From a virus, in the IMG/VR virus record IMGVR_UViG_3300043607_000025, positions 1 through 55,173 of that record: a stretch of DNA of 55,173 nucleotides; one strand, 5' to 3'. Position numbers and translations under genes: made by a program. The notes beneath the pieces were generated by a model. It worked only from the letters and a program-made list of their open reading frames with translations, searched no databases and was not told the DNA's origin. Positions 3,008 to 55,173 of this stretch are shown here, one piece after another. Position 1 is the stretch's first letter; every line of letters starts with the position of its first letter.

Positions 3008-3643
3008 TCACTCTGCGCGATTGGATTTGGCGGCGATGCCTGGGCAGCACAGGGCAAAATGTTCGCCGCAGTAAGACCGGTTAGGCAGCGCCTCGGCGGC
3101 GCAAAACAAGAAGCTCTGTTCACCGTATGGATAACGGCAATCGCTCTCTTTGAGCTCGAAGAACTGCTTGGGCCGTCGTTGCTGTCTACGCGGGACCGCC
3201 TCGGCCGGGAGTTCGGCGGGGCTCTCGACCGGCGGCGCCGGCGGCCTCATCGGATCTTGCTTCAGTTTCCTGTTGATGCGGCCAGCGATGGTGTAATCGC
3301 CGCCGGCCTGGCGGGGCCGCGGCCTTGTCTTCTCCGGTTTCGGCCGCGCGGCGCGCGACAATCCGAGGCGGTGCGTTCGGCCGATCACGGCGTTGCGGGT
3401 GAGCCCGCAGTCGAGTTCGATGGCGATCTGGCTGGCAGACAAGCCCTCGGCGTGCAGACGCCTTAGGGCCTCGTCCCGCTCCGGGGTCCAAACAGTGCTA
3501 ATTCTGATTTTGTCGTGTTTCACATCGACAGCTTCAATACGAACGAACCGTTTCCATGAAAACAATCCAGCAGTAAGCGCAGCGGGGCTAAGCCCGTGCG
3601 GCTGCGCAACCCAGATCTGCCCGACTTCTGGAGCAACTTTCAT
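3008..3643 (-). CDS. GcrA-like cell cycle regulator with an N-terminal extension
   Basis: 211 residues. From W52 the sequence reads VWTPERDEALRRLHAEGLSA, then TRNAVIGRTHRLGLS, the hallmark N-terminal helix-turn-helix of the GcrA family. The C-terminus holds the second GcrA element, a Cys-rich patch ending FCAAEALPNRSYCGEHF. GcrA of Caulobacter works with sigma-70 at promoters carrying GANTC sites methylated by CcrM. Unlike host GcrA, which starts at the Trp, this version has about 50 extra residues (MKVAPEVGQIW...) that read like a separate small beta domain. The start is supported by an ATGA overlap with the upstream methyltransferase gene. It may redirect host cell-cycle or phage promoters. 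Confidence 0.85.
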   Translation of the reverse strand: MKVAPEVGQIWVAQPHGLSPAALTAGLFSWKRFVRIEAVDVKHDKIRISTVWTPERDEALRRLHAEGLSASQIAIELDCGLTRNAVIGRTHRLGLSRAARPKPEKTRPRPRQAGGDYTIAGRINRKLKQDPMRPPAPPVESPAELPAEAVPRRQQRRPKQFFELKESDCRYPYGEQSFLFCAAEALPNRSYCGEHFALCCPGIAAKSNRAE

Positions 3644-4710
3644 TCCGCCGCCTCCATTGTTTCGGCTGTCTCGTTACCCCAGGCGTCCCACCCTGGTCGC
3701 GGCGGGCCACGCCGGTTTAATTCGATTTTGGGCATGGTCGGGTAATAGCCCTCTATCATTTCGAGGAAGCATTCAGGCTTGGCGGAATGCTCAGTCTTCG
3801 GCGCGATGATCAGTGACTCCCATTGCGTGCCGGGAGCCGGACAGGGCGGGTTACCGCGCGTGCCTATCAGCAGCAATTCATGCTTCGAGCGGTTCCAGCG
3901 GCCGGTGCTGATGCGATCCTTGCCCCAGCAGTAATTGGACTTGTATTTGAAACCCCAGGCTTCCAGTACACCAATCGCAATTCGCAAATGCTGATTGGTC
4001 GTCCATAGAAACAGCACGCAATCTTTTCCACTGATCGAAGGGACATCGCGCGCAGCGATCAACGCTGCATCACTAGTGGGATAATGATTAGAGGCATGAC
4101 GGTCCATACCTGTCTCTTCGCTCCACACCGTGTCTTTCCATTCCGGATCGGCGACGATCACCCCATATGTCTTGTCCGGCAATGCTCGCTGCTTTTCGCC
4201 GAGTGCCTTCTCGCGGTTTGCCCGCGCCGCTTTCTTGTCGCCCTGCGTGATCTCGCGCACTACCGCGGTGACGGTGGCGTCCTTACCCTGCTCGCGCAGC
4301 TTCTTGGCGACCGCCTTCAATTCGGCGGGCGACACGTCGGCGAGCTTGCCAAGCCGGTGGCGCGATGTCGGTTTGACGCCGGTAGCTTCGCGGCCCTTGG
4401 TGGATTTTCCCTGCGAGGAAAATCCATTCTTGCCCAACTGCCCGCCACCTTTTGCCTTTGGCACTCTCCGGAGTTCTTCGGCGATCCGCCGATTGCCGAT
4501 CAGGATCGCATCCTCGGCGGCAGCTTTGACCTCAGCGACATGCCCTAGCAATACGTTGATCGCTGTGGCCTCACGGATGATCTTACGAATATCATCGTAC
4601 GTCTTTGCAGCGATCAAATCGCGTTCCATGCGCCTCAGCGCTGCGAGAGCGGCAGGCACGCTCGGCACCTGCTTCCGGACGGCCTTGTCGAGCGACGGCA
4701 GGTTGCTCAT
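3640..4710 (-). CDS. MT-A70 family N6-adenine methyltransferase
   Basis: 356 residues from ATG at 4710 (ATGA overlap with the upstream gene). The C-terminal half is an MT-A70 methyltransferase: VIVADPEW is the catalytic DPPW-type motif (Glu in place of the second Pro), followed by ASNHYPT, VLFLWTTNQHL, KYKSNYCWGKD and RSKHELLLIGTRG, all typical of phage members. The N-terminal half is helical and charged, with a KGGGQLGKNGFSSQGK linker, and may bind DNA. The reaction would be S-adenosylmethionine-dependent methylation of adenine N6 in phage DNA, giving protection from restriction or regulation. Adjacency to a GcrA-like gene is notable because GcrA responds to adenine methylation. Confidence 0.85.
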   Translation of the reverse strand: MSNLPSLDKAVRKQVPSVPAALAALRRMERDLIAAKTYDDIRKIIREATAINVLLGHVAEVKAAAEDAILIGNRRIAEELRRVPKAKGGGQLGKNGFSSQGKSTKGREATGVKPTSRHRLGKLADVSPAELKAVAKKLREQGKDATVTAVVREITQGDKKAARANREKALGEKQRALPDKTYGVIVADPEWKDTVWSEETGMDRHASNHYPTSDAALIAARDVPSISGKDCVLFLWTTNQHLRIAIGVLEAWGFKYKSNYCWGKDRISTGRWNRSKHELLLIGTRGNPPCPAPGTQWESLIIAPKTEHSAKPECFLEMIEGYYPTMPKIELNRRGPPRPGWDAWGNETAETMEAAE

Positions 4711-5108
4711 CGCAGCACCCACGACAGCGGAATGAGCACATTGCAGAAGCGGCCGCCGTCGCCGCCGCCTTCACGGAAGCGGCCTTCCGCATAGGCCCGG
4801 CGCGCCAACTCCTTCAGTCGTTCGATGGGAAACATCAGATAGCAAAGGGTCTGACTGTCGCGGCGCAACTCATGCACCCAGTAATCGGCTTCGGTCACCG
4901 CAATGCCGGACGGCTGTCCGCCTTGACGATATTCGATGCAGATGTTGCCGGTCTGCTCCCACTGCCACGTCTCAGTCTTTAGCTCGATCTTTTCCAGCTT
5001 GGCGGCGGCAAAGATTTCCGCGAGCCGTCGTTCGGCAACCAACGCCTGGTCAAGCTGGAGATCGAATTTGCGATCGCGATTGAACGCGATCTTGTTCATC
5101 CCATTCAC
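4707..5108 (-). CDS. PD-(D/E)XK nuclease-like protein
   Basis: 133 residues, alternative ATG at 5099. The run FDLQLDQALVAERRLAEIF, then IELKTETWQWEQTGN and ICIEYRQ has the order helix, Glu-x-Lys, Thr-Gly-Asn, Ile-Glu seen in small phage nucleases of the PD-(D/E)XK fold. YWVHEL follows as a conserved aromatic block. It is in the same overlapping operon as the methyltransferase and resolvase, so a role in DNA processing or host DNA degradation fits. The catalytic assignment is by pattern only. Confidence 0.6.
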   Translation of the reverse strand: MNGMNKIAFNRDRKFDLQLDQALVAERRLAEIFAAAKLEKIELKTETWQWEQTGNICIEYRQGGQPSGIAVTEADYWVHELRRDSQTLCYLMFPIERLKELARRAYAEGRFREGGGDGGRFCNVLIPLSWVLR

Positions 5109-5123: not shown

Positions 5124-5489
5124 TCAGTCTTCGCCGTTATTTCCGGAGCGACCCAGACCGCGAAGTGCACGAACTGCGTCGATAAACGCAGCAACGTCCG
5201 AGCGAAGGAGATCCTCATCCCGCAAGTGGTACGTACTAGCCAATGCTTCATAGCGGTGCGCCAGCTCGGCGGCTTCATGCCGTCCTGCCGCGGCTCGCAT
5301 CCTTCGAACGGTTTTGTGTTCGTCATCGGTGATCTCGCCATAAAAGAGGGCTTTGGCTTGCCGATACGAAACGCCGGCATTGCGCGCCGCTCGCGCTAAC
5401 CAGCTTTCGCGCGTGTCATTCCACTGCCGCGGACCCGCGGCGGCCGCTACCAGATCACGCATGACTGCACCGGAATGCTTCTCCGACAT
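5124..5489 (-). CDS. Small helix-turn-helix-like protein
   Basis: 121 residues from ATG at 5489, preceded by a ribosome site (CAGGAG, about 8 bases away). A longer frame to 5855 is not used because that upstream stretch is Ser/Cys-rich and unlike protein. Residues 30-60 (SWLARAARNAGVSYRQAKAL) resemble a helix-turn-helix, followed by a helical charged tail. It is the first gene of the leftward replication run after a gap, so it may be a regulator of that operon. No family is recognised. Confidence 0.6.
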   Translation of the reverse strand: MSEKHSGAVMRDLVAAAAGPRQWNDTRESWLARAARNAGVSYRQAKALFYGEITDDEHKTVRRMRAAAGRHEAAELAHRYEALASTYHLRDEDLLRSDVAAFIDAVRALRGLGRSGNNGED

Positions 5490-5688
5490 TTTGGAAATCT
5501 CCTGCTGCACATTGACCGCGTGCAACGCAGTCACGTCGGCGCTTCCCGGCGCCGGTGCAGAGGGAAACGAACATGCGAACGAAGGAGAAAAATGCCTTGG
5601 GTCGGTGGAACGGGCCAGCTGGCTTGCACCAACCGGCCCGCCACTCCACCATCGGAACGTGTTTGGCAGTACCGATGGAGAGATCAAA

Positions 5689-5913
5689 ATGGACGCGTAC
5701 ATTGCTTGGAATGCAGCCATCCTCAACACGCTGGGCTGCTTGGTACAGCAGCTTTCCGTACGTGGGCACATCGACGGAGCAGAACTTGTTGAATGCGTGC
5801 AGACGATCGCTGCTGCACTGAGAAAAAACCAACAGCCGCTCATAGCCGATGTCATGCATCAGATCGCGATGCATCTGCTCAAATCGGACGAGCCGTTGCC
5901 ACCCCGCGGCTAG
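5689..5913 (+). CDS. Small plus-strand protein of unknown function (74 aa)
   Basis: MDAYIAWNAAILNTLGCL... is a helical 74-residue protein with well spaced hydrophobic residues and a ribosome site (GGAG) 8 bases before ATG at 5689. It runs against the surrounding minus-strand genes and its stop overlaps the stop of the 5910-6191 gene. A competing minus-strand frame (5455-5916, GTG start) covers the same DNA but is Cys/Arg-rich and less protein-like in its second half. Another plus ORF from 5592 with a good ribosome site is also possible. I favour this one only moderately. Confidence 0.5.
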   Translation: MDAYIAWNAAILNTLGCLVQQLSVRGHIDGAELVECVQTIAAALRKNQQPLIADVMHQIAMHLLKSDEPLPPRG

Positions 5914-6191
5914 CACGATGACCTCCCAAAGCTCTCAAGGAAGGCACGCGCTTCGCCCAGCGTCATCAAGCCCGCAACCTCGATAGCCGCGGACTTGGAT
6001 GTGCCCGAAGTGAACGTGAGGGGCGTCGGCGCAGTAACGAGCGCTGCAATTGGAGCCAGTCCAAGCAGCCGCAGGAAGCCGCGCTTTGTCATCACAGGAC
6101 CGGCGACCTCACGGTAGCCGGCCCGCCGCGGGGCCATCGAGACGCGAGACCAGGGCCCGACGGAGGTGGAGGTTGTCGAGGCGGGGGTCAT
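5910..6191 (-). CDS. Small protein with a Tat-like hydrophobic segment
   Basis: 93 residues from ATG at 6191 (ATGA overlap with the Cro-like gene), or 60 from an internal ATG at 6092. The internal start would give MTKRGFLRLLGLAPIAALV, a basic-then-hydrophobic head resembling a twin-arginine-like or ordinary signal segment. It is co-transcribed with the regulator upstream. Function unknown. Confidence 0.5.
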   Translation of the reverse strand: MTPASTTSTSVGPWSRVSMAPRRAGYREVAGPVMTKRGFLRLLGLAPIAALVTAPTPLTFTSGTSKSAAIEVAGLMTLGEARAFLESFGRSSC

Positions 6192-6412
6192 TCGGCTGCG
6201 ACCGATGAAGTAGCGGGAGGTTTAATCAAGGGGTTGGCCAAATCGTTCAGCGCGACAGCACCACCTGTCGCGTCTTGAATACGCATAGCCAGCGCCATCG
6301 ACGGCAAGTCGCCATTCAAAAGTTGGGCAATACGCCCCTGCGTCACGCCAACAACCTTGGCGAACGCTTCCTGGGTTTGGTCTTTTTCAGCAAGCCAGTC
6401 GGAGAGTTGCAT
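6188..6412 (-). CDS. Cro/YdaS-like helix-turn-helix regulator
   Basis: 74 residues from ATG at 6412: MQLSDWLAEKDQTQEAFAKVV, then VTQGRIAQLLNGDLPSMALA, a compact helix-turn-helix of the Cro/YdaS type. It is first in the leftward transcript and divergent from the XRE repressor at 6505, the classical arrangement of a lysogeny switch. The predicted -10 box ends only 8 bases before the ATG, so its transcript may have little or no leader. It probably antagonises the repressor or activates early genes. Confidence 0.75.
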   Translation of the reverse strand: MQLSDWLAEKDQTQEAFAKVVGVTQGRIAQLLNGDLPSMALAMRIQDATGGAVALNDLANPLIKPPATSSVAAE

Positions 6413-8739: not shown

Positions 8740-9624
8740 ATGAACACCGTGCTGCAAGATCGCATCGAACGGTTGCCTGCGATCAAGCTTTACAGCGGCT
8801 CGCACGAACCTCCGACAAACGGCATCCAAGCCTGCGCGATGGAATTGGTCTCCTGGATTGCCGGCGAACCGTGGTCAGCCCATCCCGAGTGCGCGTGCCC
8901 GGTTATTGGCTCGTTCATGCGCTCATGGAACGACGGGTTGCCCGACGATGAGCGCACCACCCTCCTCCTGCCGCTGATCCCGCGACTAGTCGGTACGCGC
9001 GGCAGCAAGGCGCTGGAGGAACGGCGCTCGCTGATGGCCGGCGATTGGCTGGTGCGGGTGAATACCCCGGCGTGGTTGCGATTGGTGGGGCTCACCGTGC
9101 ATGCCGACGCGCTCGCGTCACTTCCGGAGATTATCTCACTCAAACAAGTCCCGTCGATCAAAGGGCCGATTGAAGCCGCGCGTGTAGGTGCGGCCGCAGC
9201 GGGGGCCGCAGCGTGGGACGCAGCGTGGGCCGCAGCGGGGGACGCAGCGAGGGCCGCAGCGGGGGCCGCAGCGTGGGACGCAGCGTGGGACGCAGCGTGG
9301 GCCGCAGCGAGGGGCGCAGCGAGGGCCGCAGCGAGGGCCGCAGCGTGGGACGCAGCGTGGGACGCAGCGAGGGACGCAGCGTGGGCCGCAGCGTGGGACG
9401 CAGCGGGGGCCGCAGCGGGGGCCGCAGCGTGGGACGCAGCGAGGGCCGCAGCGGGGGCCGCAGCGGGGGCCGCAGCGTGGGACGCAGCGTGGGACGCAGC
9501 GAGGGCCGCAGCGGGCAAAAAACTATTGCCCGTCAAGGCCGAGCTACAACAGTCAGCGATCAAGCTGATCGAGCGCATGATTGCAGCCACGTCGGCCAAA
9601 GCATCCGTGGAGTTGGCACCATGA
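8740..9624 (+). CDS. Protein with a 26-unit Ala-Ala-X-(Ala/Asp) repeat tail
   Basis: 294 residues. The first 150 form a globular-looking domain ([20 protein letters not shown], then [17 protein letters not shown]) found in bacterial and phage proteins that carry alanine-rich repeat tails, some annotated as putative immunity proteins. From residue 153 to about 256 it consists of 4-residue units [16 protein letters not shown] and similar, which would form a long helix with Trp/Arg/Gly every fourth position. The last 35 residues are a normal helix. The stop overlaps the tnpB start as ATGA. Function is unknown; repeat number is likely to vary. Confidence 0.75.
9196..9507 (+). repeat. Twenty-six tandem 12-bp units, GCAGCGNGGGMC
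   Basis: Each 12-base unit reads GCAGCG-N-GGG-M-C. N is T (12 units), A (7) or G (7) and never C; M is A or C, with one GGC exception at unit 10. N sets the codon to Trp, Arg or Gly; M sets Asp or Ala. Because 12 is divisible by 3, all three plus frames and one minus frame are open across the array. It is coding, not a CRISPR array: units are too short and there are no spacers. Confidence 0.95.
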
Positions 9625-10703
9625 CGATGATCCTAACCTACAAATACAGGATCAAAGATCGTTCATCGCGCAAAACGCTGCAACGGCATGCTTTTGCTTG
9701 TAATCAAGTCTGGAATTGGTGCGTCGCCCAGCAACGCGACACCGAGGCACGCTATCGGGCAGGCGCTCCTAAACGTAAATGGGCGTCGAATTTCGATCTA
9801 CAAAAGCTCTGCAAAGGCGTGGGCACCGAACTGGGCTTGCATCAGCAGAGCGTCAACGATGTCTGCCGCGATTTTGCCAAAGCGCGCGACAAGGCCAAGC
9901 ACGCACCACGCTTCCGGTCGAGCTTTGGTGCTCGGCGAGCGTTGGGCTGGATACCCTTCCAGAGACAGAGTCGTCAAACCTGCGGGAACAGCATTACCTA
10001 TCTCGGCAAGCGCTACCGCTTCTGGGAAAGCGACAGGCCGCTACCCGAGAACGCCAAGGGCGGATGCTTCGTCGAGGATACGCTTGGCCGCTGGTACGTG
10101 TGCTTTTACATTGAGGTTGATCTACCTGCAGGCGGCAATGACGCGATCGGCGTTGACCTTGGCCTGAAATCGCTGGCGACGCTCAGCGATGGCCGCAAGA
10201 TCGAGGCGCCGCAACACTATCGGCAGCACGAGCAACGCCTGGCTTTGGCGCAGCGCGCCAATAATAAGCAGCGTACCCGGCGCATCCACGCCAAGATCAA
10301 GAATTGCAGACGGGATTTTCTGCACAAGGAAACGACGAAGCTGCACCGCGAACACGCGCTCATCGCGGTCGGCAATGTCAACGCACAACAGCTCGCAAAG
10401 ACGCGGATGGCGAAGTCCGTGCTCGATGCCGGCTGGTCTGCTTTCCGCTCCATGCTGAAATACAAATCAGCGGGATATGTGGAGGTAGACGAAAAGTTCA
10501 CGACCCAAACCTGTTCGACGTGCGGATCACTTCCGCCTTCGCGGCCGAAAGGTATCGCAGGCCTTGGAATAAGAGCGTGGGACTGTTCCGACTGTGGCGC
10601 GAGCCACGACCGCGACGTGAACGCGGCTCGGAATATTCTCGCGCTCGCGCTCAGTGTCGAGCGTCCTGTTGAGGAAAGCCGGAGGGCAACATGCCACGGA
10701 TAG
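9621..10703 (+). CDS. tnpB: TnpB-family RNA-guided nuclease homologue, operon-embedded
   Basis: 360 residues of the IS200/IS605 TnpB type. RuvC-I Asp is D179 in GVDLGLKSLA; the zinc ribbon is C298-x2-C301 and C322-x2-C325; RuvC-III Asp is D332 in HDRDVNAARN. The RuvC-II position that is normally Glu (E-D/N-L) is G251 in IAVGNVN. E291, just before FTTQTCS, could replace it, as in TnpB/Fanzor groups reported to have a moved glutamate; otherwise the nuclease would be impaired. There is no tnpA and no recognisable element end. The start overlaps the upstream gene (ATGA) and the last 13 bases overlap the next gene, whose ribosome site lies inside tnpB, so it behaves as an operon member. Any guide RNA would come from the 3' end. 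Confidence 0.92.
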   Translation: MTMILTYKYRIKDRSSRKTLQRHAFACNQVWNWCVAQQRDTEARYRAGAPKRKWASNFDLQKLCKGVGTELGLHQQSVNDVCRDFAKARDKAKHAPRFRSSFGARRALGWIPFQRQSRQTCGNSITYLGKRYRFWESDRPLPENAKGGCFVEDTLGRWYVCFYIEVDLPAGGNDAIGVDLGLKSLATLSDGRKIEAPQHYRQHEQRLALAQRANNKQRTRRIHAKIKNCRRDFLHKETTKLHREHALIAVGNVNAQQLAKTRMAKSVLDAGWSAFRSMLKYKSAGYVEVDEKFTTQTCSTCGSLPPSRPKGIAGLGIRAWDCSDCGASHDRDVNAARNILALALSVERPVEESRRATCHG

Positions 10704-18650: not shown

Positions 18651-18841
18651 CTGCCCGCCTCCCCTTCACGCAGCAGTCCGTGCGCCGCGCGATCGCCGCC
18701 GCGCGCAAGGAGGGGCTGCGGGTGACGGAGATCCGTCCGGATGGGACTTTGGTTGTGCAGGACGGGGACGCACCGGTTGCCCCGCTCGAGACGCAGGAAC
18801 ACAATGACAGAGCCTCCCGCTGGGCGGAGGTCAAGGCATGA
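18647..18841 (+). CDS. Small protein coupled to integrase (64 aa)
   Basis: 64 residues with ATGA overlaps on both sides. TQQSVRRAIAAARKEGLRVT followed by EIRPDGTLVVQDG is a pattern seen in small genes directly upstream of integrases in alphaproteobacterial prophages. It might be an excision or DNA-binding accessory factor, but no helix-turn-helix is obvious. Confidence 0.65.
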   Translation: MTARLPFTQQSVRRAIAAARKEGLRVTEIRPDGTLVVQDGDAPVAPLETQEHNDRASRWAEVKA

Positions 18842-19980
18842 GATCCGTGCGGCTGGATCTTCCCTACTTGATGGCCGATACCGACCGGCACGGGAACCGG
18901 CGCCTTTTCGTGCGCCGGCACGGCCGCAAGATCCGCATCCGGGAGCAGCAGGGGACCGCGGCCTTTGCCAGCGCCTACACGGCGGCCCTGGAGGCGCTCG
19001 AGAGTCGGGCTCTGGACCAGCGCCAGCGCGCGCCGAAAGGAGCGCCGGCGGGCACGCTGGGCTGGCTAGCGGCGGCCTATTTCGGGTCTTCGGAGTTCAA
19101 GGCCCTGGATCTTGTCTCGCAGCGGACCCGTCGCGGGATCCTCGAGGGCTGCCTGCTCGAGCCGCGGGAACCTGGATCCGCCGACCTGATGGCACTCTGC
19201 CCGCTCGAGGTCTTGGCTGCGCCCCATATCCTGATGCTTCGGGACCGCCGAGCGGACAAGCCCGGATCCGCAAACAATCGGCTGAAATACCTGTCGGCCA
19301 TGTTCGGGTGGGCGGTCAATCGCGGGATCCTGCGGGCCAATCCGGCTCGGGACGTTAAGCCGGTCAGATACGCAAGCTCCGGGTTTCACAGTTGGACGCC
19401 AGCGGAGGTCGTCCAATTCGAGCGAAGGCACCCGGTCGGGTCCAAGGCGCGGCTGGCGCTGGCACTCCTGCTGTTCACCGGGCCGCGCCGGGGGGACGTT
19501 GTGACCTTCGGCCGCCAGCACGTCAAAGACGGCTGGATCCGCTTCGTACCCCGGAAAACCCGCTACAAACGGTCAACGCTCCTCGAGATCCCGATCGTGC
19601 CTGAACTGGCCAGGATCCTCGCGGCAAGCCCCACGGGCGAATTGACATTCCTCGAGACGGAATATGGCCGGGCATTCTCGGCCGCTGGCTTCGGCGGCTG
19701 GTTCCGGAAACGGTGCGATGAGGCGGGGCTCAAGCATTGCAGCGCCCACGGGCTCCGGAAGGCAGGGGCAGCCATCGCGGCGGAGCGCGGTGCGACCGAC
19801 CGCCAGCTCATGGCGCTATACGGCTGGACAACGGCGAGCCAGGCGACGGTCTACACTGCGGCGGCCGACAGAAAGAAACTGGCCGGCGAAGCCGCAAGGC
19901 TATTGGGTGGCGATCGAACAGAGAACGAACCTGCCCCACTCGCGATTGCCCCACCTTCTAAGACTTTGAAAAATGGATAG
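18838..19980 (+). CDS. int: Tyrosine recombinase / phage integrase
   Basis: 380 residues. The catalytic set is visible: R217 in TGPRRGD, K240 in PRKTRYK, H304 and R307 in SAHGLRKAG, W330 in YGW (replacing the usual His) and nucleophile Y339 in TVYTAA. The first 180 residues hold the arm-binding and core-binding domains (NNRLKYLSAMFGWAVNRG). It would integrate and, with an accessory factor, excise the phage genome. TGCCCCAC repeats in the last codons and just downstream look like arm sites, so attP probably lies at 19930-20110. Confidence 0.92.
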   Translation: MRSVRLDLPYLMADTDRHGNRRLFVRRHGRKIRIREQQGTAAFASAYTAALEALESRALDQRQRAPKGAPAGTLGWLAAAYFGSSEFKALDLVSQRTRRGILEGCLLEPREPGSADLMALCPLEVLAAPHILMLRDRRADKPGSANNRLKYLSAMFGWAVNRGILRANPARDVKPVRYASSGFHSWTPAEVVQFERRHPVGSKARLALALLLFTGPRRGDVVTFGRQHVKDGWIRFVPRKTRYKRSTLLEIPIVPELARILAASPTGELTFLETEYGRAFSAAGFGGWFRKRCDEAGLKHCSAHGLRKAGAAIAAERGATDRQLMALYGWTTASQATVYTAAADRKKLAGEAARLLGGDRTENEPAPLAIAPPSKTLKNG

Positions 19981-44785: not shown

Positions 44786-44866
44786 CGGGACTTGACGCGA
44801 CGCGACGTGACAAGACGCGAATAGACGTGGCGAGGCAGGGCAAGACACGGTAGGGCAAGGCAAAGG
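44786..44866 (+). repeat. Degenerate 5-bp array, NNGAC orientation
   Basis: The gap between portal stop and collagen-like start (44738-44910) carries pentamers such as CTTGA CGCGA CGCGA CGTGA CAAGA CGCGA ATAGA, then more degenerate CGAGG/CAGGG/CAAGG units. It is the opposite orientation of the larger array at 53044-53301. Nothing coding is seen here. Confidence 0.75.
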
Positions 44867-44910
44867 ATGGCGGCCGAGATGTGTCCCAATCATTTCGGTC
44901 GCCACTTTTA

Positions 44911-46311
44911 TTAAGCCGCACGACGCAGTTTCTCATCGCGATAGCGGCGAGTCGCCAGCAATGCGATACTGGTTGCCTTCTCAGCATCAGCCGGTGACGG
45001 CGTTGGCGGCGCCTGGTCATTTGCAGGCGGTGCGGCCGGCGGCGACTTCGATGCAAACGGATCGTCCTGCGTGTCGCGCTTGGCCAGTGCCGCTAGCGAG
45101 TAATTCTGCTGCTGAAGGTAGGGCGACTCGCCGCCCTTGACCGGCTTGAGGTCGAGCTTGCCGCGGCCCTCGTTCGGCGCCATCACACCGGCGCCGACCG
45201 CATCGCGGACGGTGGTGACCAGCGTGATCGAATCCATCCGCAACAGCGTCTCGATGTCGAATTCGGTGCCGAGATCCGTGCCCGCAAGACCGAGGCCATA
45301 ATCGAGCAGTTCCTCGATCTCCTCGATGTGGCTTTGCAGCGCCTGCGAATAGTACTCGACGTTGAGCGCCTGGACGTTGTTGTAGCTCGGCAGCGCACCG
45401 ACGCCGACCTTGTACGGCGGCACGTGATAGACCGAGCACACAACCTCGGCCGACCATTTCAGGTTTTCGATCAACTGGCCCTCGACGTGGGTCATTGAGA
45501 CCTTTTCGTATTTCAAGCCTCCGCCCAGCACGGCGACTCGACCATAGTTGGCGCCCCCGAAGCGGGTTTCCCATTGCTCCTTGAACCGCGTCTGCTGGAC
45601 GTCGCTGATCTCGCCCGGCGCGGTAATGATGCCGCCAGGTGTCGACGAGTTCTCGAACAACAGCGCCGAAGCCCGCTGCGCGTTGAGGCCCAGCATCGAG
45701 GATAAGCCGCTGGCGAATACCGGCGGCGTGCCGACCAGCGGGTGGAACAGGCAATTCATCCGGTCGTGGATGATATCGCGCGCCGGGACGACGATCTCGC
45801 CGATGCCCGCGAGGTTATCGCTGCTCAGGCGGTAGAATACGGCGCTGTCGTCGCCATCGTCTGACACCAGCGGCTGCACCCTGGTCGGATCGAGGACGTG
45901 CAGGCCGACGACGACCTGACGATTGTCGCGCACCTTGAGCACGTAGGTGTTGCCGCGGCTGAGTTTTGAGAGCAACCAGCATTCCCAGAACTGATTGCGG
46001 GTCTGGTAGGAATTTGGTCGTCTAAGGACGGGACTAAACGCCGAGTTAGTGGTCTCGGTCCAAATATCGTCCTTATCCTGCTCGACCAATTTTACTCGCA
46101 GCTTGGCGATGTCGCGCGCGATCAACGTCTTGCATGCAAAGTCGGCATGGAAGCTCGACGCCGTGTCGGTGGTGATCGAGACGTTGCGCTGCCAGGCCCC
46201 GGCGAACGGTTCGCGGATGATCGGGAACCATCCGCCGCGGCCTTCCGATACCGAGCTCAACGCCTTCTGCTTCTCACCGGTGAACGGGATCGGCAGGCCA
46301 AAGATGCGCAC
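44911..46311 (-). CDS. Portal protein (HK97 family)
   Basis: 466 residues. FACKTLIARDIAKLRVKLVE, then NQFWECWLLSKLSRGNTYVL, VVGLHVLDPTRVQP, IIHDRMN and the clamp/crown region FKEQWETRFGGANYGRVAVL are signatures of HK97-type portals. VCSVYHVPPYKVGVG and EYYSQALQSHIEEIEELLDY follow as usual. A disordered Pro-rich tail ends the protein. It forms the dodecameric DNA gate of the head. Confidence 0.93.
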   Translation of the reverse strand: MRIFGLPIPFTGEKQKALSSVSEGRGGWFPIIREPFAGAWQRNVSITTDTASSFHADFACKTLIARDIAKLRVKLVEQDKDDIWTETTNSAFSPVLRRPNSYQTRNQFWECWLLSKLSRGNTYVLKVRDNRQVVVGLHVLDPTRVQPLVSDDGDDSAVFYRLSSDNLAGIGEIVVPARDIIHDRMNCLFHPLVGTPPVFASGLSSMLGLNAQRASALLFENSSTPGGIITAPGEISDVQQTRFKEQWETRFGGANYGRVAVLGGGLKYEKVSMTHVEGQLIENLKWSAEVVCSVYHVPPYKVGVGALPSYNNVQALNVEYYSQALQSHIEEIEELLDYGLGLAGTDLGTEFDIETLLRMDSITLVTTVRDAVGAGVMAPNEGRGKLDLKPVKGGESPYLQQQNYSLAALAKRDTQDDPFASKSPPAAPPANDQAPPTPSPADAEKATSIALLATRRYRDEKLRRAA

Positions 46312-52473: not shown

Positions 52474-52986
52474 TCACGCGGCGGCGGGCGGGACTGCTGC
52501 ATTGCGCGGTGGTGGTTCCTTCTGCGCCATTGTTTGCAGCCGGCCAAGCAGCACCATGGTCGCGTCGAGCGCGGCTTGGAGTTCGTCTTCGAGATCCAAC
52601 GCCTTCGCTACATTTTGCGCGCGCTCGAAGATGGATCGCACGCGCTCCACCTCGGCCGCCAATACATCGGCGGATGCGCTTTCCTCGGATCGGATTCGAG
52701 CGATAGCACGATAGCCTTGGAGCGGAGCCACATCGGGGTCGCGGACATATCCCACGACCGAGAACTTTTGTTTTTCGACCGTCATCACCACACGCACACT
52801 TGAGATCAAATGGCGGGCTTGGTCGAGCCGGTAGTTGGCGGCGGCCTTGGTGTTGTCCCACTCGAAATCCTTGTGCAGCGGGTGCTTTGGATTGCGGGCG
52901 GCTTCGACGACGTGGGTCGGCGTCAGGCAGCCGTGCTTGTTCTCCAGCGCGCGGAGGGCGGCGATTTTGACTTTCATGCTGCTCAT
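52474..52986 (-). CDS. Conserved phage protein (170 aa)
   Basis: 170 residues. PTHVVEAARNPKHPLHKDFE then WDNTKAAANYRLDQARHLIS is a recurring segment in phage proteins of unknown role near terminase genes. The C-terminal half is a long helix (LAAEVERVRSIFERAQNVAK) and may oligomerise. The 317-base gap upstream (52987-53303) contains only the pentamer array. Confidence 0.65.
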   Translation of the reverse strand: MSSMKVKIAALRALENKHGCLTPTHVVEAARNPKHPLHKDFEWDNTKAAANYRLDQARHLISSVRVVMTVEKQKFSVVGYVRDPDVAPLQGYRAIARIRSEESASADVLAAEVERVRSIFERAQNVAKALDLEDELQAALDATMVLLGRLQTMAQKEPPPRNAAVPPAAA

Positions 52987-53043
52987 TGATTGCTCCGTTG
53001 CGAGGGCCGAGACCGGGGTCTCCGATCTCGGCTTTGTTGTTTG

Positions 53044-53301
53044 GTCACGTCAGGTCTCGTCAGGTCACGTCTGGTCGCGTCACGTCACGTCTCGTCGGGT
53101 CGCGTCACGTCGTGTCATGTCACGTTGGTCTTGGCTCGTCGTGTCAAGGCCCGTCAAGTCGCGTCACGTCACGTCTTGTCGTGTCACGTCTCGTTGGTCT
53201 TGGCTCGTCGTGTCAAGGCTTGTCGCGTCGCGTCACGTCTCGTCAGGTCAGGTCTAGTCCGGTCAGGTCTAGTCCGGTCTAGTCCTGTCCCGTCACGTCC
53301 C
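53044..53301 (+). repeat. 258-bp array of 46 GTCNN pentamers
   Basis: Pentamers GTCAC, GTCAG, GTCTC, GTCGC, GTCGT and similar run in register: 16 units, a 14-base spacer GTTGGTCTTGGCTC, 11 units, the same spacer again, then 19 units. Only two units (GGCCC, GGCTT) break the GTC start. The spacer plus the following GTCGTGTCAAGGC is an exact duplication. It occupies nearly all of the gap between 52986 and 53304, and no gene is credible in it. A smaller inverted array lies at 44786-44866. Confidence 0.95.
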
Positions 53302-53303
53302 GA

Positions 53304-54146
53304 TTACTTCGCACCAACACCGTTGCCGATGTGCTCCTCGCCCGGCAGCGGTGGTATTGCTGGCTTCTTTCGCTTCGTGGATGTTGCCGGCCGCGCCACG
53401 CGGGTCACCTGCTCGGCCAGGAACCGGGTCAAGAGGTTTTCGGTCTCGCGGTCGTAAAACTGCGGATCGGCGAGCGCATTGTCCTGCGCCTTGGTGGCTC
53501 CGAGCTTGACGATCTCGTGCCATTCCCGGTCGTCCTCCGAGCACACCCGCCAGCAGCCGAATGCCATCTTGCCTTTTTGTGGCCGGCCGTCGCCGACGCC
53601 GATGATGATGCCCGCAGCACCCAGTAGGTTGCCGACCGATTGAGATTTGATCAGAGCTGTTGGAAACATCACGGTGATCCTGGTGGCCCATCGCGGAAGG
53701 ATGGGAAGCGTCCGCACATCCGGCGTGCGCTTCATGTCACTGGAGCGAACGATGGTGCTGTAGATCTGCGGCACACCCCAGACCGGGATCTTGAGGCCAG
53801 GCACGCGCGTGAGCCGGCCGATCTGCGACTTGGTCGCGCCGACGATGTCGATGGCAACGTCGGCGATCGCCGCATGGAAGCTGCCGGCCGGCATGTACAG
53901 CCGCGTCGGCGCATTGTCGTCGTCGCGGAATTGATAGGCGGCGTCGCGGAACTCGTCGAACGGCTCGTGTTTCTTCGACGATGCACGCTCGGCCGCGTTC
54001 TTCCGGCCGGGTGGGTCCAACAGCGCTCCGGCCGCCTTAGCGCTCACGGCATGTGGCACAAGCGGCGATGTGCCGACGAGACAGAAATCCATGCTCGTCA
54101 TTTCGATTTCGGTGATTGTGATGTTGGTTTCCTGATTTTTAGCCAT
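53304..54146 (-). CDS. Conserved phage protein upstream of the pentamer array (280 aa)
   Basis: 280 residues with RBS-like GAAGTT before ATG at 54146. The fold looks alpha/beta: FCLVGTSPLVPHAVSAKAAG, then APTRLYMPAGSFHAAIADVA, WATRITVMFP and GNLLGAAGIIIGVGDGRPQK followed by MAFGCW. The SPLV...H and GxGVGDxRP blocks recur in phage proteins near replication genes, but I cannot name the family. It sits 33 bases downstream of the primase-helicase gene, so a replication or recombination role is inferred. Confidence 0.65.
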   Translation of the reverse strand: MAKNQETNITITEIEMTSMDFCLVGTSPLVPHAVSAKAAGALLDPPGRKNAAERASSKKHEPFDEFRDAAYQFRDDDNAPTRLYMPAGSFHAAIADVAIDIVGATKSQIGRLTRVPGLKIPVWGVPQIYSTIVRSSDMKRTPDVRTLPILPRWATRITVMFPTALIKSQSVGNLLGAAGIIIGVGDGRPQKGKMAFGCWRVCSEDDREWHEIVKLGATKAQDNALADPQFYDRETENLLTRFLAEQVTRVARPATSTKRKKPAIPPLPGEEHIGNGVGAK

Positions 54147-54179: not shown

Positions 54180-55173
54180 TCATGAGTAAGCCCCGGTGTC
54201 GTAATCCGTTGACCGATATTTCCCCGTCGCGAGGTTGTATTGGAGGCCGAGTTTGCAGGGGTAACCGAGTTCATCGAACCGGGCCTTGCGGTGGTAGAGC
54301 ACAGCCTCGGTCTTGCGGTTCACACCGTCGAAAATCTCAGGCCGGTGCACGACGAAGCCCTGGTCGACCATATTTTCCCAATGTTTGGCGCCGGCGATGT
54401 CTTCGAGGCCTGGGGGCCCGCCGCGCCGATTGCCATCCATTTTTGCTGGGTGAGCTACGATCTGGACGTGGCAATTCATGTCATTCGCGAACACGTACAT
54501 CGCGCGCAGGCAGCGCGCGATGTACTCATCCTCGCGTTCGTTTCGCTCCCGCGAACCCTCGAGCCTATTCCAAGGATCGAGCGTGATCACCTTGGCACCA
54601 TGGCGCACGATGGCGATTTCGGCGAGGTCCAGGAACCATTCGAGAGTTTGTCGGTGCTCTGGGTGGACGGCGAAAAGGTAGTGCTCGTTGATCCAGCCGT
54701 CGGCCTTGCGCTTGTCATCGTCGTCAAGATCGCGCTCGTGCCTGCCCATGATGAGCGTACGAAGTTGTTTGCGCATGTGCGGCTTCGGCCGTGTCTCGAA
54801 GGTCGCGGCGAACAACACCAGGCGATAGGCTTGGATGATCTGAAACCAGATTTGCGTCCAGAGCATTGTTTTACCCATGCCAGCGTGCCCGGTGACGACG
54901 GAAAGCGTACGCGGCGCGAGCCTGATTTTGCTTTCCCACTCCGAAAATCCTGGGTCCCACAGTGTCAGCGCTGGGGGCTCGGGGAGTTCGCCGAGGCGGT
55001 AAAGCCCGGCGACTGGCCACTGCAGCGACCCTTCGGTTACGAGGTCGCGTAGGTCGCGCGCGCCTTCGGTGCGCAGGACATCGTTGGCGTCCTTGCAGCC
55101 TTCCGGCCAATCGACAAACCAGAACCGTGCCGCACCGAGTAACCTGGCCATGTCAGCGCGGAGTGACAGGCCG
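54180..55173 (-). CDS. Primase-helicase, C-terminal DnaB-like helicase part
   Basis: C-terminal part of the gene that starts at 655 and crosses the circular junction; bases 54983-55173 duplicate 1-191. The helicase core shows a Walker A loop (GHAGMGKT), a Walker B strand ending in ITLDPWNRLE and a later H-containing strand (CHVQIVAHP), as in the RecA-fold ring helicases of the DnaB/T7 gp4/Twinkle class. It ends at 54180, and the next gene down the minus strand (53304-54146) starts 33 bases later. The product should hydrolyse nucleotides to unwind DNA while its TOPRIM half primes the lagging strand. Family assignment is confident; the reported start at 55151 is only an internal Met, since the true N-terminus lies at the other end of the window. 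Confidence 0.88.
   Translation of the reverse strand, partial: GLSLRADMARLLGAARFWFVDWPEGCKDANDVLRTEGARDLRDLVTEGSLQWPVAGLYRLGELPEPPALTLWDPGFSEWESKIRLAPRTLSVVTGHAGMGKTMLWTQIWFQIIQAYRLVLFAATFETRPKPHMRKQLRTLIMGRHERDLDDDDKRKADGWINEHYLFAVHPEHRQTLEWFLDLAEIAIVRHGAKVITLDPWNRLEGSRERNEREDEYIARCLRAMYVFANDMNCHVQIVAHPAKMDGNRRGGPPGLEDIAGAKHWENMVDQGFVVHRPEIFDGVNRKTEAVLYHRKARFDELGYPCKLGLQYNLATGKYRSTDYDTGAYS
54983..55173. repeat. Terminal overlap, right copy
   Basis: Second copy of the 191-base overlap found at 1-191, with one synonymous mismatch at 55110. It should be removed when the genome is circularised. The mismatch suggests population variation or an assembly error rather than a pure assembler k-mer artefact. 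Confidence 0.93.

Follow-up and report, generated by a model that had tools for sequence, protein, structure and literature searches.

The 55,173-nt stretch of DNA analyzed here (hereafter the window) very probably represents a temperate phage carrying a VIPR system, and its intergenic pentamer arrays would then be the genes of the guide RNAs (vrRNAs) of this system, whose expression and targeting we infer. VIPR was described in 2026 as a CRISPR-like, RNA-guided weapon of phages against rival mobile DNA. According to the published outline, the system comprises a RAMP protein, a vap gene, and vrRNAs with 9–16 GGY/NN pentamers followed by a 3′ tail. The triplet, given as GGY or a 'related consensus', serves as scaffold and the NN dinucleotide as guide; the NN pair with double-stranded DNA, leaving out one base between successive pairs, and competing mobile elements are repressed by the complex. 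Six types of accessory gene (vap1–6) are named in this outline, and VIPR was proposed as a CRISPR precursor with a noncontiguous guide code (PMC13142463). The first-pass annotation of the window knew of no described phage element of such form, a statement overtaken by the description of vrRNAs in 2026 (PMC13142463). VIPR is a known kind of system since then, and the window differs from it by a GAC core, an accessory gene other than that of SUSP1, and a vrRNA on the opposite strand.

Direct counting in the window confirmed the array of 46 GTC pentamers reported earlier for an intergenic gap, with 46 GTC triplets on the plus strand at 53044–53299. Forty of them recur exactly every 5 bp, in chains of 16, 8, and 16 units, and the remaining six lie inside the two spacers of the array; by chance, the longest GTC chain has 2–3 units (dinucleotide-model shuffles of the window). 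The two spacers are identical, as had been stated, but each is ~27 bp long and not 14 bases; they lie at a distance of 69 bp from each other, and the 5-bp phase changes at each of them. The shorter GAC array, rightly described before as the inverse of the main one, has 15 units on the plus strand, of which units 1–6 are perfect GACNN and units 7–15 carry GAA, GAC, GGC, GGC, GGC, GAC, GGT, GGC, and GGC. At the variable NN positions of the window arrays, 14 of the 16 dinucleotides are used. The unit numbers (16, 8, 16, and 15 for A to D; Table 1) agree with the 9–16 of the published system, B with its 8 units being just under this range.

Table 1. Features of the putative VIPR locus and of the distant array D in the window.
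Feature	Position	Strand	Description
vipr (phrog_4652)	53304..54146	-	280 aa; RAMP/Cas7-like protein with C-terminal extension
Candidate vrRNA A	53220..53299	- (from gene strand)	16 GAC-NN units; NN order GT GG AG TA CG TA CT CG TA CT CT GA GT GC GC AA
Constant spacer, copy 1	53193..53219	-	27 nt; candidate tail of vrRNA A; identical to 53124-53150
Candidate vrRNA B	53151..53190	-	8 GAC-NN units; NN order GT AC AA GT GT GC TT GG
Constant spacer, copy 2	53124..53150	-	27 nt; candidate tail of vrRNA B
Candidate vrRNA C	53042..53121	-	16 GAC-NN units; NN order AT AC GT GC CC GA GT GT GC CA GT CT GA CT GT CA
Hairpin between array and vap	53006..53032	-	strong; candidate 3′ tail after C
Candidate vap (phrog_15946)	52474..52986	-	170 aa; conserved neighbor, far side of the array from vipr
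Candidate vrRNA D	44789..44863	+	15 units, mixed GAC/GGC/GGT core; NN order TT GC GC GT AA GC TA GT GA AG AA AC AG AA AA
Hairpin, then T-rich stretch, after D	44868..44912	+	candidate tail/terminator

Candidates for the invariable 3′ tails are the two identical spacers, for which only weak structure was predicted, and the strong hairpins after C and D. For the 60-nt stretch with the hairpin after C, a folding energy of -23.6 kcal/mol was predicted, and for the 61-nt stretch at the D hairpin -26.8 kcal/mol. The hairpin after C is without a T-run on the minus strand, and a T-rich stretch is located beyond it on the plus strand; the D hairpin was not called in the terminator scan, which had a loop limit of 8. 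Promoter and terminator scans revealed no sigma-70-like promoter for the arrays, and comparison of the window with Rfam gave no match.

Assembly noise had been named in the first-pass annotation as a way in which the arrays might lose their meaning. Since three other IMG/VR records (L272–L274) contain a main array identical to that of the window, the arrays are real phage sequence. Simple tandem repeats of low NN diversity, not accompanied by Vipr, account for many of the bacterial (GTCNN)7 matches, and the window arrays could likewise be a neutral low-complexity tandem repeat, or else an assembly artefact. Against this, their NN are varied, the core is perfect over 40 units, identical copies exist in separate records, and the arrays of relatives are tied to Vipr, which leaves this explanation next to no probability.

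The gene adjoining the main array was characterized by its family. A profile (A1) built from an alignment of 29 family members matched one solved protein in the PDB, 36pp, 'SUSP1 Vipr protein' (E=8e-18). The AlphaFold (AF2) model of the window protein has a pLDDT of 87, and its top PDB matches in Foldseek are RAMP proteins of the Csm3/Cas7 kind. Because the profile matches 36pp and the predicted fold matches Cas7/Csm3, homology and modeling identify the product as the Vipr protein, a minimal RAMP. All 29 members matched phrog_4652, which is annotated with unknown function in PHROGs, and a glycine-rich motif is conserved at the C-terminus of the family (GxGxxRP...GxF). In the Vipr tree, the window and L016 fall inside a clade with 100/99 support that holds GTC and GGY members. 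TRAP-like RNA binding, the first idea for the arrays, was abandoned when Vipr was identified.

Further Vipr homologues annotated as hypothetical and located beside GGY-NN arrays were found in the Mycobacterium phages LittleE (gp34) and Brocalys (gp45), the Gordonia phages Trine (gp41), UmaThurman (gp39), and ODay (gp19), and the Pseudomonas phages LESphi2 and Medea1. With one Vipr query, 128 phage records were matched, most of them from phages of Escherichia and Salmonella.

To relate arrays and genes across genomes, IMG/VR was scanned for seven GTCNN units, which gave at least 120 stretches; the same scan of bacterial genomes gave a similar number. Protein clustering of the array-rich viral loci yielded one dominant family, present in 39 loci and mostly directly adjoining the arrays (median distance ~18 bp), and the window's Vipr belongs to it. 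Among the matches listed, 35 viral stretches combine 20 or more GTC/GAC units with varied NN, and 33 of these encode Vipr; the gene is present in 3 of 60 viral stretches with short arrays of 7–13 units and in none of the 119 bacterial stretches, which are mostly low-diversity tandem repeats. By contig names, some array stretches lacking the gene are other parts of contigs that bear vipr (L028 with L034, L055 with L023). A period-5 scan also recovered GGY arrays in SUSP1, which has the published system, as well as in further phage isolates that encode Vipr homologues. Because Vipr adjoins the main array and the association between both holds across viral genomes, we read the arrays as vrRNA genes. 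The search of related genomes for (GTCNN)n arrays that the first-pass annotation had recommended delivered long varied arrays tied to vipr, and its view of functional, unusual intergenic pentamer arrays that could act as RNA was right.

The same association bears on a reading at the DNA level, in which the arrays are sites where a protein of packaging, replication, or partition makes half-turn contacts and the adjacent RAMP-like protein binds DNA directly. The 5-bp spacing corresponds to about half a helical turn, and the main array is located near an HNH gene and TerL. However, the arrays associate with vipr and not with terminase or replication genes, DNA sites have no need for two freely variable bases beside three fixed ones, and the related SUSP1 system uses such repeats as guide RNA (PMC13142463). 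We consider this reading very unlikely. The roles in packaging, recombination, or partition suggested before are not borne out, as the arrays track vipr instead of packaging genes, and for this reason packaging/partition DNA was dropped as a candidate. It had also been suggested that the two arrays pair with each other, which would make them an RNA–RNA regulatory pair on one late transcript. The fixed positions of the GAC and GTC strands are indeed complementary, but the NN list of D shares at most two consecutive dinucleotides with those of A, B, and C, and relatives contain several arrays which are all on one strand, so that such a pair is improbable in the extreme.

The arrays of relatives have varying neighbors, namely antirepressor, tail, DNA polymerase, or repressor genes. 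In L034 (IMGVR_UViG_3300037070_005035), many GAC-NN arrays follow one another through a run of genes and are found in almost all of its intergenic gaps; the first of them adjoins a gene with a product that, by eye, looks like CsrA. A bacterial stretch of Pseudonocardia sp. ICBG1293 (L158) without a Vipr homologue contains 236 GTCNN units in perfect succession (5177-6354), which probably belong to a coding sequence or form a simple tandem repeat.

The candidate vap gene belongs to phrog_15946, which also adjoins vipr and arrays in L029, L048, L070, L105, L114, L120, and L121 as well as in the mycobacteriophage Brocalys and the Gordonia phage ODay, and is a conserved partner in the Vipr clade of the window. 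Profile comparison detected no relation between its product and that of the gene neighboring vipr in SUSP1. The large GAC clade has a different partner gene, which matches the SUSP1 neighbor (E=1.5e-15). Fold prediction for the candidate Vap was of low confidence and gave no structural matches.

In the 38 Vipr loci that have arrays, GGY, GAC, or GTC is the fixed triplet. On the gene strand of the IMG/VR loci, GAC was found in 20 and GTC in 9, frequencies biased by the selection of this sample by the GTC pattern. In the window, A to C have GAC throughout, and the mixture of GAC with GGC and GGT in D links the window arrays to the GGY code. Clear terminators follow the arrays on the gene strand in loci of both kinds (GTC: L011, L052; GAC: L019), with L115 as one weaker counter-example. 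Since terminators are located on the gene strand for GTC and GAC loci alike, these few cases suggest that GTC is a separate core and not a reversed GAC. Mapped onto the Vipr tree, the core label requires 10 changes (minimum possible 3; mean of shuffled labels 17.9), and by this phylogenetic measure the core switches repeatedly. We see an even chance that the fixed triplet of VIPR is itself evolvable, with switches between GGY, GAC, and GTC and scaffolds that may not cross-react, and that vrRNAs can be located off-locus on the opposite strand, as D would be. The VIPR element is common in uncultivated phages, with a varying scaffold triplet (GGY, GAC, GTC) and a constant 5-nt architecture. Because of this variation, it can be tested directly how Vipr recognizes the triplet and whether systems cross-react, and long (GNY-NN) arrays with varied NN beside phrog_4652 provide a rule for finding further loci.

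For the window, the following mechanism is proposed. A small RAMP protein would be made from vipr, and the arrays would be transcribed to guide RNAs, A, B, and C from the minus strand and D from the plus strand, each vrRNA consisting of ~8–16 GAC-NN units followed by a 3′ tail of constant sequence. Along this RNA, Vipr subunits would line up, each gripping one GAC triplet and leaving two variable bases exposed. Thereby, the NN pairs could jointly recognize a target in double-stranded DNA in which one base, usually the codon wobble position, is passed over between pairs (xNNxNN...), and the complex may then silence genes that belong to rival phages, prophages, or satellites. Transcription, assembly of the ribonucleoprotein, the 1-nt skip, DNA binding, and repression are carried over here from the system in PMC13142463.

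With regard to the target code, codon positions 1–2 were the best fit of the NN in 39 of 67 GAC guides (34% in order-swapped controls), in 22 of 35 GTC guides (26% swapped), and in 19 of 23 GGY guides (43% swapped). This preference is expected if the target has a period of 3, i.e., a one-base skip, and is suggestive of it. A composition-free test of strand coherence gave no signal for GAC guides (p=0.52) and only a marginal one for GGY guides (p=0.03). When targets were searched with the 1-nt-skip pattern, guide C gave no match with 12 exact NN and 8 matches with 9 NN, none extending beyond the searched part (20–22 of 32); guide A gave one match without extension, and guide D four, the best of which (24 of 30) was judged to be due to chance. 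Guide C had no match with up to 3 mismatches in 397 genomes of the order of Methylobacterium, and two guides of L013 gave no real target match. For 155 guides compared with 2.1 Mb, no excess over shuffled guides was obtained at any skip length; an unfiltered version of this search was confounded by simple repeats. These negative searches are weak evidence, because the likely targets are unsampled soil elements.

The closest known counterparts are the type II VIPR systems of SUSP1 and a P. fulva prophage (PMC13142463; 36pp). In common with the window, these are phage-encoded and have a homologous RAMP protein with an accessory gene next to it, and several vrRNA-like arrays in which each 5-nt unit has three fixed bases and two that are hypervariable, with constant segments after the repeats. 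They differ by their GGY core where the window has GAC. The window Vipr also has a C-terminal extension, its accessory gene is unrelated to that of SUSP1 by profile comparison, and a fourth vrRNA-like array (D) is located on the opposite strand at a distance of 8 kb. The VIPR-like loci of Brocalys, UmaThurman, and ODay, whose Vipr proteins belong to the window's clade (100/99) and are annotated as hypothetical, have GGC/GGT cores unlike the GAC of the window; Brocalys and ODay share its accessory family. Class 1 CRISPR RAMP proteins (Cas7/Csm3) have the fold of the window Vipr, and oligomerization along a guide RNA is expected for both, but the guide information in the window would be spread over pentamers instead of residing in a contiguous spacer. 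CRISPR repeats or other cas genes were not seen at the window locus, where the neighbors are helicase, HNH, and TerL genes. A further likeness is that to TRAP, an array of protein that binds RNA triplets with 2-nt spacers in (G/U)AG-NN arrays. It extends to the triplets and the 2-nt spacing; TRAP reads the triplets and not the NN, and its protein is unrelated to Vipr.

The window is bounded by a 191-bp direct terminal repeat (1-191 and 54983-55173), deduced from the BLAST coordinates of L272–L274, which cross the terminal-repeat junction. The record is thus probably a complete genome of ~54,982 bp. An integrase gene is located at 18838-19980. At 3640-4722 (minus strand), an MT-A70-type methyltransferase (Pfam MT-A70) is encoded, possibly a phage DNA adenine methylase. 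The plus-strand gene at 9192-10703 encodes a TnpB-like/OrfB_IS605 protein of 496 aa (Pfam Cas12f1-like_TNB), a second protein of RNA-guided type in this phage. Its 5′ part (9192-9513) consists of ~27 copies of a 12-bp tandem repeat (GGCCGCAGCGTG), giving the protein an odd repetitive N-terminus.
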